From Campylobacterales bacterium (GTDB lineage Bacteria; Campylobacterota; Campylobacteria; Campylobacterales; Sulfurimonadaceae), in the NCBI GenBank assembly GCA_026390115.1, contig JAPLGO010000038.1:124001-188000 (forward strand): DNA of 64,000 nt. Direction: 5' to 3'. Of this stretch, positions 5,041 to 29,624 are shown piece by piece (positions within the stretch are counted from its first letter, which is position 1; each line of letters begins with the position of its first letter). The notes below the pieces were generated by a model. That model worked only from the letters and a program-made list of their open reading frames with translations, was not told the DNA's origin and did no database searches. The translations under genes were made by a program, and so were the position numbers.

Positions 5041-6258
5041 TTAGAATTTATAGCTAAGTTGAGCACTTAGAGCTTGTTGACTGTGCTTAGTTTCGATTGT
5101 AGATGGACCGCCAGCTGTCATAATATCAAATTTTGCTGATGTTTCCGGTGAATAAACATATGCTAAATCAACAGCAGTTCTCTCACTCAGACTATAACTA
5201 CCACCCACTGTCATGTGTGATTGAACGATAGCAGGGAAACCAACTAAGTTAAACATGTTTGTCATAGTACCTTGCTGCATGGTTGCAGGAGTAGCTCCAA
5301 GACCTGCTGCCTCAATAGGAGACTTTGCATAGTTGTAACCAAGACGACCTACCCAAGTTTTTGCAGTGTACTGATAACCAAGCGCGATTACATCCTGATT
5401 TTTCCATCCGAAATCTGCGTAACCTTTTGTATCCTCCCACTTGATTTGTTTATAGTCAAGAGCTACTGTATTTGCACCAAAAGCGTAAGATGCTCCAACA
5501 CCCATTGTTGCAGGGGTTGATAATTTATCAGCCATTCCAAGATTAGAAAATTGGCCATTGTACTCCATGTCTATTTGTGATACATAAGTAGCACCAAGAG
5601 TAAGACCTGACATTACATATGCAACACCTAAGTTATAACCGAATTTTAAATTTTGAGATACTCCGTTGCCGTTATGAAATGGACCCGTTGCTGTAGGCAT
5701 TGTAAAATCCATATCCAAAGCGCCATATTGAAGTAACGGAGTAACAGCTACACTAAAGTTATTAATTTTATACGCTACAGGAACACCAAATTGCATTAAC
5801 TGTAGGTTTGTAACCATATTCATAGTACCGTTATTAGGATTCGTTGCACTAGCAAAATTTGTTTTAGCATTGCGGTAATCAGTACCCATACCAGCAGTTC
5901 CCCATATTCCTATGCCTAAATAAAGATTGTCATTTATCTTCGTAGCAATAGAAACTTCTGGGATAACATTCAATTTTGCATCACTATCGTTACTTACCAT
6001 ACCGCCAGTTCCACCGTCAGTGCTTACTGTTGGCATAAATACAGTACCACCGAAAGAGATCTCAGTATCATTTACAGATGTTATCAAAGCAGGGTTCACA
6101 AGTGCTGACTCTGCACCATGACTCATACCTATACCAACACCACCCATACCTGTTGCTTTAGCACCTGTTGCTATCATGTTTGATCCATTCGTTGCAAACG
6201 CTGATGTTGCACCCAAAGCCAATGCAGCTACTACTGCTAATCTAATTGTTTTTTTCAT
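5041..6258 (-). CDS. FadL/OmpP1-family outer-membrane transporter
   Basis: A 405-residue beta-barrel of the FadL family, which moves long-chain fatty acids and other hydrophobic compounds across the outer membrane. A signal peptide (MKKTIRLAVVAALALGATSAFA) is followed by the hatch-domain start TNGSNMIATGAKATGMGGVG and the SALVNPA motif with the conserved NPA. The chain ends in YKF, the terminal aromatic recognised by the Bam machinery. AAAGGAA precedes the ATG. It has its own terminator, so the two exported genes downstream are probably a separate unit, though they may share function. The substrate cannot be read from sequence. Confidence 0.88.
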   Translation of the reverse strand: MKKTIRLAVVAALALGATSAFATNGSNMIATGAKATGMGGVGIGMSHGAESALVNPALITSVNDTEISFGGTVFMPTVSTDGGTGGMVSNDSDAKLNVIPEVSIATKINDNLYLGIGIWGTAGMGTDYRNAKTNFASATNPNNGTMNMVTNLQLMQFGVPVAYKINNFSVAVTPLLQYGALDMDFTMPTATGPFHNGNGVSQNLKFGYNLGVAYVMSGLTLGATYVSQIDMEYNGQFSNLGMADKLSTPATMGVGASYAFGANTVALDYKQIKWEDTKGYADFGWKNQDVIALGYQYTAKTWVGRLGYNYAKSPIEAAGLGATPATMQQGTMTNMFNLVGFPAIVQSHMTVGGSYSLSERTAVDLAYVYSPETSAKFDIMTAGGPSTIETKHSQQALSAQLSYKF

Positions 6259-6612
6259 TCTTATTCCTTTAAATAAAGTAAATTATCAAATAGTTCTACT
6301 ACTTGCGTTAGAGAGATTATAGAAGAGTTAATTTTAATTCAATCTTAAAAATTTTTAAACTTACATGGCGGCTCTTTTGCTATAACGGCATATGTAACGA
6401 TAATTATTATAAATAGTACATAAGTCCATAACTAAAGTAGATAATAGTGTAATTAATTATTAGTTTATTAGATAAATTAATAATTGATATAAAAATGCGA
6501 TTGATTTTTATTTTGTGATAAAATTATCACATATGCGTAGTTTTGAAACATATATTTACTATTGGTTTAGGAAGAGATGCTTTGCATGTGTAATTTTACA
6601 CATGCAAAGTTT
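6259..6612. other. 354-base AT-rich gap, possible small RNA on plus strand
   Basis: No credible protein gene. The left end holds the promoter region for the FadL-type gene. Notable elements are the dyad GTGATAA-AA-TTATCAC (6515-6530) and a 13-bp hairpin at 6581-6608 that is followed by a U-run only in the plus direction. A plus-strand transcript starting near 6500-6535 and ending at that hairpin would be 80-110 bases long. It is a candidate only. Confidence 0.35.
6581..6608. terminator. hairpin between pycA-type gene and upstream gap
   Basis: Perfect 13-bp stem, arm TTTGCATGTGTAA at 6581-6593 and its complement at 6596-6608, with a 2-base loop. GTTTTTAA follows on the plus strand; the minus side has no U-run. 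It sits five bases beyond the stop codon of the biotin carboxylase. Confidence 0.65.
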
Positions 6613-26379: not shown

Positions 26380-26413
26380 AGATTATATACTACTTTTAAG
26401 TAGTATATAATCT
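26380..26413. promoter_or_regulatory. 34-bp palindrome: Rrf2 operator O1 and divergent -10 boxes
   Basis: A perfect inverted repeat with 16-bp arms (26380-26395 and 26398-26413) around TT. Its centre is TACTAC-N6-GTAGTA (26388-26405). A TATAAT lies on the plus strand at 26406-26411 and another on the minus strand at 26387-26382, so two back-to-back promoters share the site. The symmetry and the divergent regulator point to an autoregulatory operator. Confidence 0.7.
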
Positions 26414-26435
26414 GTTTTTGTCTAAAATTTTCAAA

Positions 26436-26453
26436 TACTACTTTTTGGTAGTA
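26436..26453. promoter_or_regulatory. second Rrf2 operator O2
   Basis: TACTAC-N6-GTAGTA again, with the same two half-sites as O1, 48 bases downstream and just before the ribosome binding site of the first nrd gene. Two copies at this spacing would allow cooperative or roadblock repression. Confidence 0.65.
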
Positions 26454-26468
26454 ATTAAAGGATTATGT

Positions 26469-26612
26469 ATGAAAACAGAAAATAGAACAAGATGTATCAT
26501 TTATACAAGAGTGATGGGCTACCATAGACCAATAGAGAGTTTTAACATCGGCAAACTAGGTGAACATAGGGAGAGAAAATATTTTTTAGAACAAAAAACG
26601 GCCAATAAATGA
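26469..26612 (+). CDS. split glycyl-radical domain of anaerobic ribonucleotide reductase
   Basis: A 47-residue protein that corresponds to the C-terminal tail of NrdD. YTRVMGYHRPIESFNIGK matches the glycyl-radical motif RVxGY, with the radical glycine predicted at G17, and GEHRERKYF matches the last helix of NrdD. It is encoded before the catalytic subunit, not after it, and its TGA overlaps the next ATG (ATGA), so both are made together. The large subunit lacks this motif. I infer that the two chains assemble into one active class III enzyme, with NrdG activating the small chain. The ATG at 26469 follows AAAGGA; the longer open frame from 26418 runs through the operator and is not used. Confidence 0.8.
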   Translation: MKTENRTRCIIYTRVMGYHRPIESFNIGKLGEHRERKYFLEQKTANK

Positions 26613-28693
26613 ATTTTCTGATTTTAAAAAGAAATGGTTCGCAAGAGAATTTCTACTCTTATAAAATTGAAGATGCCATAAAAAAAGCGTATGAAAGCGT
26701 GAATGAACTCTACGACGAGAAAGTTTATTTAAATACGATTGAACATATCTCAAAGCTTGAAAAAGTTGAAGTTGAGTCGGTACAGGACATCATAGAGAAA
26801 GAGCTATTTCAATTCGGACATTTCAATGTAATGAAATCTTTTATCACTTACAGATTCTTGCATAAACTTCAAAGAGAGGAGTTCTGCGGCAACTTAAATT
26901 CTACCACCTTTATAAATTCTACCCAAAGTGTTGAAGAGTACATCCACAAAGAGGATTGGAGGATAAACGCAAATGCAAATATCAGTTACTCAAATGCGGG
27001 TCTTGTAAATAATCTTGCCGGAAAAGTTGTTGCAAACTATTGGCTCGATAAAGTTTATTCAAGCGATGAGGGTTACGCTCATAGAAACGGTGATATTCAC
27101 ATTCATGATCTTGATAATCTGAGCGGATATTGTGCTGGATGGAGCTTAAGAGTTCTTCTTGATGAGGGCTTCAACGGAGTGCGTGGGAGAGTTGAGAGCA
27201 AAGCACCAAGCCATTTTAGAGAAGCATTAGGTCAGATGGTAAATTTTTTGGGAATTCTGCAGAGTGAATGGGCGGGAGCGCAAGCTTTCAGCAGTTTTGA
27301 CACCTATCTTGCACCCTATCTCTTTAAGGATAAGCTGAGCGAAGATGAGATAAAAAAAGCGCTCAAAGGGTTTGTTTACAACCTGAATGTACCATCAAGA
27401 TGGGGACAAAGCCCCTTCACAAATGTAACGATTGATTGGACAGTGCCGAGTGATTTAAAAGAGCAAATTCCGACAAAAAATCAAAAGCATCTTTTGCATG
27501 GAATAGATGACGAACAACTGCTTGAAACTGCAAAAAAGAGAGATGAGAAAGTTACCTCATTAACAGATTTAACCTACAAACACTTTTATCATGAAATGAA
27601 ACAGATTAATAAAGCCTTTTTTGAGATTTTAACAGAGGGAGACGCGAGCGGTCAGCCTTTTACCTTTCCGATTCCGACTGTAAATATAACCGAGGAGTTT
27701 GACTTTGACGGTGAAAATACAGATATTTTATTTGAAAACACGGCAAAAATCGGAAGTGCCTATTTTCAAAATTTTATAGGAAGTCAATACACAAGAGACG
27801 CCGAGGGCAACCTGTGTGAAAACCCGAATGCCTATAAACCTGGGCATGTGAGAAGCATGTGTTGTAGGTTGCAGCTCGATTTAAGAGAGTTGCTCAAGCG
27901 AGGCGGCGGGCTTTTCGGTAGTGCCGAGATGACTGGAAGTATCGGGGTTGTGACGCTCAACATGGCAAGGCTCGGTTATTTATATAAAAATGACAAAACG
28001 GCACTCTTTGTAAGGATTGAAGAGCTTATGGAGTTGGCTTACTCAACTTTGGAGAAAAAAAGAGTTGTAGTGAATGAGCTGTTTCATAAGGGGCTTTACC
28101 CATATACAAAACGCTATCTGCACCATTTCAATAACCACTTCTCAACCATCGGTGTTAATGGAATCAATGAAATGATAAAAAATTTCAGTGGAGATACGGA
28201 CGATATTACAACTAAAAGCGGAATCGCATTTGCAGGTGAAATTTTGGATTTTATGAGAGAAAAAATCATCTCTTATCAGGAAAAAAGCGGAAATCTTTAC
28301 AATCTTGAAGCTACTCCGGCAGAGGGAACGACCTACCGTTTTGCAAAAGAGGACAAAAAAAGGTATTCAGATATTATTCAAGCGGGGTTTGCTCAAAATA
28401 TTTACTATACAAATTCATCCCAAATTCCTGTAAACTACACAACCGACCCTTTTGAAGCTCTTGATTTGCAAGATGATTTACAGTGCAAATATACGGGCGG
28501 AACAGTTTTACATCTTTACATGAGTGAAAAAATATCGAGTATAAAAGCAACAAAAAAGTTTGTAAAAACAGTGATAGAAAACTATAGACTTCCGTATATC
28601 ACAATCACTCCGCTCTTCTCTATTTGCCCGATTCATGGCTATCTGCATGGAGAGCATGAGTTTTGTCCAAAGTGTGACGAAGAGAATGCATAA
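26609..28693 (+). CDS. nrdD: anaerobic ribonucleoside-triphosphate reductase, catalytic body lacking the radical tail
   Basis: Reduces ribonucleotides to deoxyribonucleotides without oxygen. 694 residues: an N-terminal ATP-cone (FLILKRNGSQENFYSYKIED onward) that senses ATP/dATP, then the ten-stranded barrel with HIHDLDNLSGYCAGW and the conserved cysteine block RSMCCRLQLDL. The C-terminus ends with the zinc-finger remnant SICPIHGYLHGEHEFCPKCD and stops six residues after KC (DEENA and stop), exactly where normal NrdD continues into the RVxGY radical site. That missing tail is the separate gene at 26469-26612. The overlap with the upstream gene is four bases and with nrdG eight bases, so the three form one operon under the Rrf2 operators. 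Confidence 0.93.
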   Translation: MNFLILKRNGSQENFYSYKIEDAIKKAYESVNELYDEKVYLNTIEHISKLEKVEVESVQDIIEKELFQFGHFNVMKSFITYRFLHKLQREEFCGNLNSTTFINSTQSVEEYIHKEDWRINANANISYSNAGLVNNLAGKVVANYWLDKVYSSDEGYAHRNGDIHIHDLDNLSGYCAGWSLRVLLDEGFNGVRGRVESKAPSHFREALGQMVNFLGILQSEWAGAQAFSSFDTYLAPYLFKDKLSEDEIKKALKGFVYNLNVPSRWGQSPFTNVTIDWTVPSDLKEQIPTKNQKHLLHGIDDEQLLETAKKRDEKVTSLTDLTYKHFYHEMKQINKAFFEILTEGDASGQPFTFPIPTVNITEEFDFDGENTDILFENTAKIGSAYFQNFIGSQYTRDAEGNLCENPNAYKPGHVRSMCCRLQLDLRELLKRGGGLFGSAEMTGSIGVVTLNMARLGYLYKNDKTALFVRIEELMELAYSTLEKKRVVVNELFHKGLYPYTKRYLHHFNNHFSTIGVNGINEMIKNFSGDTDDITTKSGIAFAGEILDFMREKIISYQEKSGNLYNLEATPAEGTTYRFAKEDKKRYSDIIQAGFAQNIYYTNSSQIPVNYTTDPFEALDLQDDLQCKYTGGTVLHLYMSEKISSIKATKKFVKTVIENYRLPYITITPLFSICPIHGYLHGEHEFCPKCDEENA

Positions 28694-29357
28694 CTACAAT
28701 ATTTGCGATATTACACCTTTTACTCTGCAAGATTTTCCAGATACAATCGCTTGTATTATCTGGTTTAGCGGATGTAACATGCTTTGCTCCTACTGTCATA
28801 ACCTAGATTTAGTTTATGAGAGTGAGAAGCGTTTAAGTATTGAAGAAGTGGTGACTTTTTTACAAACTAGAAAAGGAAAACTTGAAGGTGTAGTTTTTTG
28901 CGGAGGAGAGCCGACTCTCTATCCAGAAATTTTGGAACTTTCGCAAAAAATAAAATCCATGGGATTTAAAATAAAACTTGACACAAACGGCTCAAAGCCT
29001 GAAGTTATACATGACCTTTTACCATATCTTGATTTTGTGGCACTTGATTTCAAATCCACAGAATTAAAGTTTTTAGAAATAACACACTCTAAACTCTACA
29101 GTAAATTTGAAGAGTCACTCGATTTGTTGCTCAGCTCTTCTGTTGAATTTGAAGTTCGTACAACATACCATAGTGAACTTTTAAGCTATGAAAATATTAA
29201 CGAAATGATAAATTTCTTAGAAAAAAAAGAGTACAAAAAAAGATATTTTATACAGCCATATATTACGCAATTAAGATTTATAAAAGAGCTTCCTAAATCA
29301 GTAGTTTTTGATGTTTCAAAAATTAAACTTTCTACCCTAAAGATAGGGATAAGATAA
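28686..29357 (+). CDS. nrdG: anaerobic ribonucleotide reductase activating enzyme
   Basis: Radical SAM activase that generates the glycyl radical on NrdD. The 223 residues carry the cluster motif C30-x3-C34-x2-C37 in SGCNMLCSYCH, a GGEP SAM-binding turn (FCGGEPTLYPE) and the DTNGS strand. The start at 28686 sits inside the nrdD end, with a GACGAAGAG site; an in-frame ATG at 28635 is deeper in nrdD and unlikely. Here its target would be the separate 47-residue chain, which makes recognition of the split enzyme an interesting question. Confidence 0.9.
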   Translation: MHNYNICDITPFTLQDFPDTIACIIWFSGCNMLCSYCHNLDLVYESEKRLSIEEVVTFLQTRKGKLEGVVFCGGEPTLYPEILELSQKIKSMGFKIKLDTNGSKPEVIHDLLPYLDFVALDFKSTELKFLEITHSKLYSKFEESLDLLLSSSVEFEVRTTYHSELLSYENINEMINFLEKKEYKKRYFIQPYITQLRFIKELPKSVVFDVSKIKLSTLKIGIR

Positions 29358-29413
29358 GAGTTTTTGATATAAATCAAGAAAAATATTATAAAATTATATA
29401 TAATAATACTCAT

Positions 29414-29490
29414 AAGCCGTCAATGCTAAAAAGCCTTCCGAGAGCCTCCCTAAATTCAAGCAATGCTTAGTCAAAATTTATTGACGGCTT
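29414..29490 (+). ncRNA. 77-base structured element closing the nrd operon
   Basis: AAGCCGTCAAT (29414-29424) pairs perfectly over 11 bp with 29480-29490 and is followed by AGCTCTTTTTG. Inside are smaller helices: GCT/AGC, AAGC/GCTT and TAAATT/AATTTA. It can act as a terminator for nrdG, but the 55-base branched interior is far larger than a normal loop and could be a regulatory or processed RNA. It is not a tRNA. No known class recognised. Confidence 0.4.
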
Positions 29491-29624
29491 AGCTCTTTTT
29501 GCCTGAATTAAAATATTTCTCTTCATTGAAATTTTACGTAATAATAATTCAAATGGTAACTTAAGTGTAACGGATGTATCATTTCACTTACTTTCGTTAA
29601 ATCTGCTACCATAAGGAATTTAAA

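Follow-up and report, generated by a model that had tools for sequence, protein, structure and literature searches.

The rrf2-nrd intergenic region

We studied a region of a 64,000-nucleotide stretch of DNA (hereafter the window) from a sulfur-oxidising bacterium of the Campylobacterales, family Sulfurimonadaceae. Between a minus-strand gene for an Rrf2-family regulator and a divergent, plus-strand class III ribonucleotide reductase (RNR) operon, the window carries two copies of the dyad TACTAC-N6-GTAGTA (Table 1). The original prediction had placed two identical operators between the Rrf2 gene and nrd. Their location was confirmed, with the correction that the operon starts with a 47-aa ORF and not with nrdD; as for identity, the six-base arms are the same in both copies but the spacers differ. 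The first copy lies within what had been described as a 34-bp perfect palindrome: its 16-bp arms are paired and 32 of 34 positions are symmetric, but it is not strictly perfect because the two bases of the TT centre are unpaired. The TATAAT boxes that had been noted on opposite strands within the palindrome arms are present as described, and so is the second 18-bp dyad, 48 bp downstream of the first; from its end, the ribosome binding site is 3 bp away and the first ATG (position 26469) 15 bp away. A consensus sigma-70 scan scored no promoter at the TATAAT boxes and found no good -35 sequence; both boxes are kept in two related genomes, G132 and G123 (see below).

Table 1 Features of the rrf2-nrd region (positions in the window)
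Feature	Position	Strand	Evidence or description
Rrf2-family regulator, 132 aa	25927-26325	-	PF02082, E 1.9e-22; TIGR00738 over cut-off; C-x6-C-x5-C-x2-H
Putative operator 1	26380-26413		Inverted repeat, 16-bp arms, TT centre; core TACTAC-N6-GTAGTA at 26388-26405, TACTACTTTTAAGTAGTA
TATAAT, candidate -10 of rrf2	26382-26387	-	Inside operator 1
TATAAT, candidate -10 of nrd operon	26406-26411	+	Inside operator 1
Putative operator 2	26436-26453		TACTAC-N6-GTAGTA, TACTACTTTTTGGTAGTA; just 5' of the ribosome binding site
AAAGGA, ribosome binding site of first nrd gene	26457-26462	+	Sequence
47-aa ORF, glycyl-radical loop of class III RNR (RVMGY)	26469-26612	+	PF13597 positions 530-562
NrdD, ATP cone and catalytic barrel, without glycyl-radical loop	26609-28693	+	PF13597 positions 2-530; PF03477
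NrdG2-type radical SAM activase	28686-29357	+	TIGR02495, E 2.8e-54, over cut-off

The dyads are not a product of chance, since no exact copy appeared in 300 dinucleotide shuffles of the window; the longest perfect arm measured 16 in the window versus 9-12 across 20 shuffles. A matrix trained only on loci linked to nitric oxide reductase (nor) genes, with the nrd clade left out, gave 27.5 bits for operator 2 and 23.4 bits for operator 1, the next-best site in the window scoring 8.9. An Rfam search of the window returned no match.

A search of the whole genome (2.64 Mb) for a regulon, as had been proposed, yielded only these two exact copies, both at nrd, and no regulon beyond nrd. When three mismatches were allowed, the pattern had fewer matches genome-wide than its reversed control. 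The sole near match to the dyad, at C18:17243, was rejected as a regulon site; its neighbours are a MarR-type gene on one side and a rubredoxin-like reading frame on the other. TTACTA-like inverted sites were also seen in locus L003 (contig C18) at ~1501 and ~987, before a MarR-type gene and before a YceI-like gene; this MarR-type regulator is unrelated and the half site a look-alike. Another candidate, before an mntP-like gene (C39:219), was discarded: it scored 13.4 bits, and the weakest training site 18.1. The cNor operon of the window genome was also rejected as a target: the dyad is absent there, which puts NO detoxification outside the regulator's regulon in this genome.

A class III RNR with a separate radical loop

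All parts of a class III RNR are encoded in the operon, i.e., the ATP cone, the barrel, the glycyl-radical loop and NrdG, with the loop on a separate ORF. This 47-aa ORF, whose stop codon overlaps the nrdD start (ATGA), matched the last 33 model positions of PF13597 with an E value of 2.1e-5 and 23.8 bits, slightly under the curated cut-off of 26.2, and has more than 30 homologues with the motif RVMGYHRP.ESFN.GK. A PDB search with the 47-aa piece alone gave no match. Compared with class III NrdD proteins (e.g., PDB 8p23 and 9d3x), the system of the window has the same ATP cone, barrel and NrdG activase, and differs in that the loop is a separate 47-aa protein encoded 5' of nrdD.

Elsewhere in the genus, NrdD (~72% identical) is also split, and the small piece is usually located between nrdD and nrdG; it lies downstream of nrdD in most of the genus, and upstream in the clade of the window and in L127, a locus discussed below. 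Across 298 Campylobacterota genomes, most NrdD matches ended at profile positions 528-537; fused NrdD, reaching position 562, made up a minority of this draw, and many of these cases belong to a single genus of family f11. These profile matches indicate that class III RNR is split across most of the Campylobacterota, with the radical loop as a predicted separate protein of ~45 aa which, being encoded separately, must act in trans. The split radical loop brings to mind GrcA/YfiD and pyruvate formate-lyase. At 29380-29500, in the gap that separates nrdG from a Trk-like potassium transporter gene, an imperfect long inverted repeat AAGCCGTCAAT...ATTGACGGCTTAGC is followed by a T run; it had no Rfam match and is probably a terminator.

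The Rrf2 regulator

The regulator scored 80.3 bits against PF02082 (cut-off 30) and 82.5 bits against TIGR00738 (cut-off 73.3). Its predicted structure, weak in the cluster loop, showed the Rrf2 fold in a Foldseek search, with matches to CymR, RsrR, IscR and NsrR at TM scores of ~0.7-0.8. Residues C88, C95, C101 and H104 (A1 numbering) were invariant in an alignment of 11 relatives, and the C-x6-C-x5-C-x2-H pattern is common to nearly all relatives collected, with a longer form in L075 and L077. These features suggest that the regulator is a probable Fe-S sensor. Judged by the Rrf2 gene, the closest named relatives of the window genome are metagenome bins that carry the labels Sulfurimonas sp. 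and Helicobacteraceae.

The protein fell well outside the NCBIfam equivalogs for NsrR (25.5 bits versus a cut-off of 182) and IscR (49.2 bits versus 207.55), and its best named families were IscR, RirA and CymR, not NsrR. With NsrR of Streptomyces coelicolor (PDB 5n07, 7b0c) it shares the Rrf2 fold, three cysteines, a small regulon that would include its own gene (PMC9338935) and the expected control of NO-tied genes. In contrast, the operator is a 22-bp TACTAC dyad here and a 23-bp site for ScNsrR, the target here is nrd, and the ligand set looks IscR-like: the aspartate at position 8, a known ScNsrR ligand (PMC5411485), is absent from the regulator. IscR, which is among the best PDB matches, has the same Cys3-His pattern with C-x5-C-x2-H; the regulator differs from it by one extra residue between the first two cysteines (C-x5-C-x5-C-x2-H in IscR), by the lack of an isc operon and by a different operator.

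The dyad at nitric oxide reductase loci

Clear relatives of the regulator were found in ~40 of 135 genomes of the genus and in 49 of 399 genomes of the order. Among the genus loci examined, the regulator lies beside nrd only in the window genome, G132 and G123; elsewhere its relatives are usually divergent from norC-norB or, in Arcobacteraceae and MAG DE12.003, from qNor. We collected 55 nor loci, defined as an Rrf2 relative with a divergent norC (50) or qNor (5). The strict dyad was present in 53 of them and two dyads in 37 to 45 (looser patterns); a reversed control pattern had no occurrence. The two dyads are mostly 45-47 bp apart and the last one mostly 18-20 bp before the start codon, a design that the window promoter shares (48 and 15 bp, respectively). 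A shared operator at NO-related genes, a trait of NsrR-type regulators, thus holds for the group, this member having nrd as its target. The dyad would then be the operator of an apparently undescribed Rrf2 group of the Campylobacterota, with nitric oxide reductase genes as its usual target.

As single cases, the neighbour of the regulator gene was a globin-like or a hemerythrin-like gene; no isc or suf gene was seen beside members of the group. At loci L081, L031, L079, L080, L086 and L087, Rrf2 relatives are divergent from a globin-like gene, a hemerythrin-like gene or the gene of a MTFLNSLELLAFHN... protein, the latter loci having one dyad each; these genes are likely further members of an NO regulon. 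Open-access literature searches returned nothing on Rrf2 with epsilonproteobacteria or Campylobacterota, nor on NsrR with Sulfurimonas, and no description of NsrR control of nrdD was found in the open-access listings. The Campylobacterota NO regulators in the literature examined are of the CRP/FNR type (NssR, Nss family).

Conservation and origin of the nrd arrangement

Both dyads are kept at the nrd promoters of G132 and G123. In these two genomes the second arm of operator 1 reads GTCGTA, so the 34-bp symmetry is not kept and the core dyad remains. Operator 2 scored 19-27 bits in all three nrd-linked species; dyad 1 of L125 and L126 was weaker, at 16-17.5 bits. The regulators of the three species (83-87% identical to that of the window) retain the reading frame and the metal motif. 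The search detected no dyad in any of the 26 remaining nrdD promoters that were scored, all of them without this regulator beside nrd, and the dyad was discarded as a general nrd element of the genus. The expectation that it would be conserved upstream of nrd in relatives thus had a mixed outcome that favours the original prediction: it held in the two relatives with an adjacent regulator and failed in the remaining nrdD promoters read within the genus, where the regulator is not adjacent.

Other nrdD promoters showed elements of their own. Many in the rest of the genus (L038, L042-L047, L051, L052 and L056-L059) share a different element that reads approximately GTGAC-N6-TGTGACA and then TTTTTATTATA; it lies some tens of bases 5' of the start codon and is probably bound by another regulator. 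In the Arcobacteraceae MAG locus L169 (G271:C41; coordinates 2919-2940 and 5995-6414) the operon order is nrdD-grd-nrdG-rrf2. Its best matrix match, 12.4 bits, is near the 95% point of shuffles and ends 60 bp before nrdD, and a diverged dyad, AATGCGAC-N6-GTAGCAAT, precedes nrdD. L169 may represent a separate Rrf2-nrd link whose operator specificity has shifted; as a second, weaker case it gives a hint that nrd came to be linked to this regulator group on more than one occasion.

In the Rrf2 tree, the three nrd-linked proteins grouped together (99), were joined by the qNor-linked protein of L127 (91) and fell inside a qNor-linked group (88). The tree was built from few columns with a short search, and its branches are long, including the one by which L127 joins the nrd clade. 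The NrdD tree, independent of the former, also united the same three species with L127 (100). The L127 locus combines rrf2-qNor, with two dyads, and grd-nrdD in the unusual order of the window ~2.4 kb beyond qNor, with no dyad at the promoter there. In the window genome and G132, qNor is absent; the sole match spans the catalytic half and corresponds to the cNor operon. Aligned end to end, the window promoter matched the L127 qNor promoter at 67 of 85 positions and norC promoters at up to 66, and the promoter alone is no proof of qNor descent because the similarity to L127 is barely above that to norC promoters.

By the gene trees and gene orders, the nrd regulator descends from qNor-linked regulators. 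Most likely, an ancestral block of the L127 type, rrf2-qNor-...-grd-nrdD, lost its qNor, which would have placed grd-nrdD-nrdG behind a nor-type promoter. A replacement in the opposite sense is less probable, given that the regulator and the dyads are otherwise nor-linked.

Proposed regulation and alternative explanations

Considering the dyads, their conservation, the co-occurrence of regulator and site and the descent of the regulator, we find it probable that a promoter was captured and that the dyads are operators of the adjacent Rrf2 protein, an NO-type Fe-S repressor governing nrd and itself. We are evenly divided on the fuller proposal, that the class III RNR of a denitrifier came under an NO-sensing Rrf2 repressor via a captured nitric oxide reductase promoter, with NO gating synthesis of the radical subunit and the glycyl-radical peptide as the first gene. 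Binding, repression, the cluster and NO as the signal are all parts of a proposed mechanism. The cluster-loaded Rrf2 dimer would occupy both dyads and keep nrd and its own gene from being transcribed, on the model of other Fe-S Rrf2 repressors, in which the holo form binds the operator (PMC9338935). Operator 1 would span the core of the divergent promoters and, with both candidate -10 boxes inside it, would let nrd and rrf2 be repressed jointly; operator 2 would lie at the start of the nrd message, just before the ribosome binding site. The cluster would be destroyed or nitrosylated by NO that the cell's NirS makes during denitrification; this would release the repressor and open nrd and rrf2, and class III RNR would be made when NO is present. 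In the window genome NirS adjoins the cNor operon and a class I RNR is also encoded; NO would therefore be a mark of growth by denitrification, and it would make sense for the cell to change from class I to class III RNR when NO is present.

A comparable link is known in Pseudomonas aeruginosa, where nrdDG is activated by the NO sensor Dnr (PMC5645315). In both cases an NO sensor, presumed here, would govern the class III RNR of a denitrifier; Dnr, however, is a CRP/FNR-type activator with an Anr/Dnr box (PMC5645315), whereas the regulator of the window is an Rrf2 protein and presumably a repressor. The redox- or NO-responsive Rrf2 switch on anaerobic nucleotide reduction, controlling its own gene, that the original prediction had put forward is supported, at the level of sequence, by the dyads at nor loci and the conserved Cys3-His motif.

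The same regulator and operators could respond instead to Fe-S or redox status, as an IscR-like switch linking the choice of RNR to cluster supply. This signal has to be considered because the ligand motif resembles that of IscR more than that of NsrR, in the C-x2-H spacing and in the missing position-8 aspartate (a known ScNsrR ligand; PMC5411485); the best named families point the same way, and NrdG needs a 4Fe-4S cluster. We nevertheless regard it as unlikely: the targets of the group are overwhelmingly NO reductases, with the globin-like and hemerythrin-like single cases, isc/suf genes were not seen beside the group, and loss of the cluster in oxygen would turn on an enzyme that oxygen kills. 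It is very improbable that the dyads are remains of a nor operon that has since disappeared, with a regulator that has ceased to act on nrd; qNor was lost and the arrangement is common to three species only, but all three have kept both dyads, the regulator's reading frame and metal motif, and a well-scoring operator 2 (see above). There is likewise very little chance that operator 1 is an RNA hairpin serving as terminator or attenuator (on the plus strand, the 16-bp stem runs into TTTTTGTC, and the region has one terminator-like match versus 0.2 expected in shuffles), as the stem is broken in both close relatives with the core dyad kept, only rrf2 antisense lies upstream on the plus strand with nothing else to terminate, and operator 2 and dozens of nor promoters have the dyad at fixed places before the start codon.

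With the NO-responsive Rrf2 repressor as the preferred explanation, the comparison defines, across the Campylobacterota, a regulator group of NO reductases and its operator, both apparently undescribed, and in one clade the switch would have been rewired recently onto DNA-precursor synthesis. The move of the regulator to its new target can be tested, because natural loci from before and after the change exist. If the proposal is true, NO may turn on the supply of DNA precursors in the bacterium of the window and in its two close relatives.
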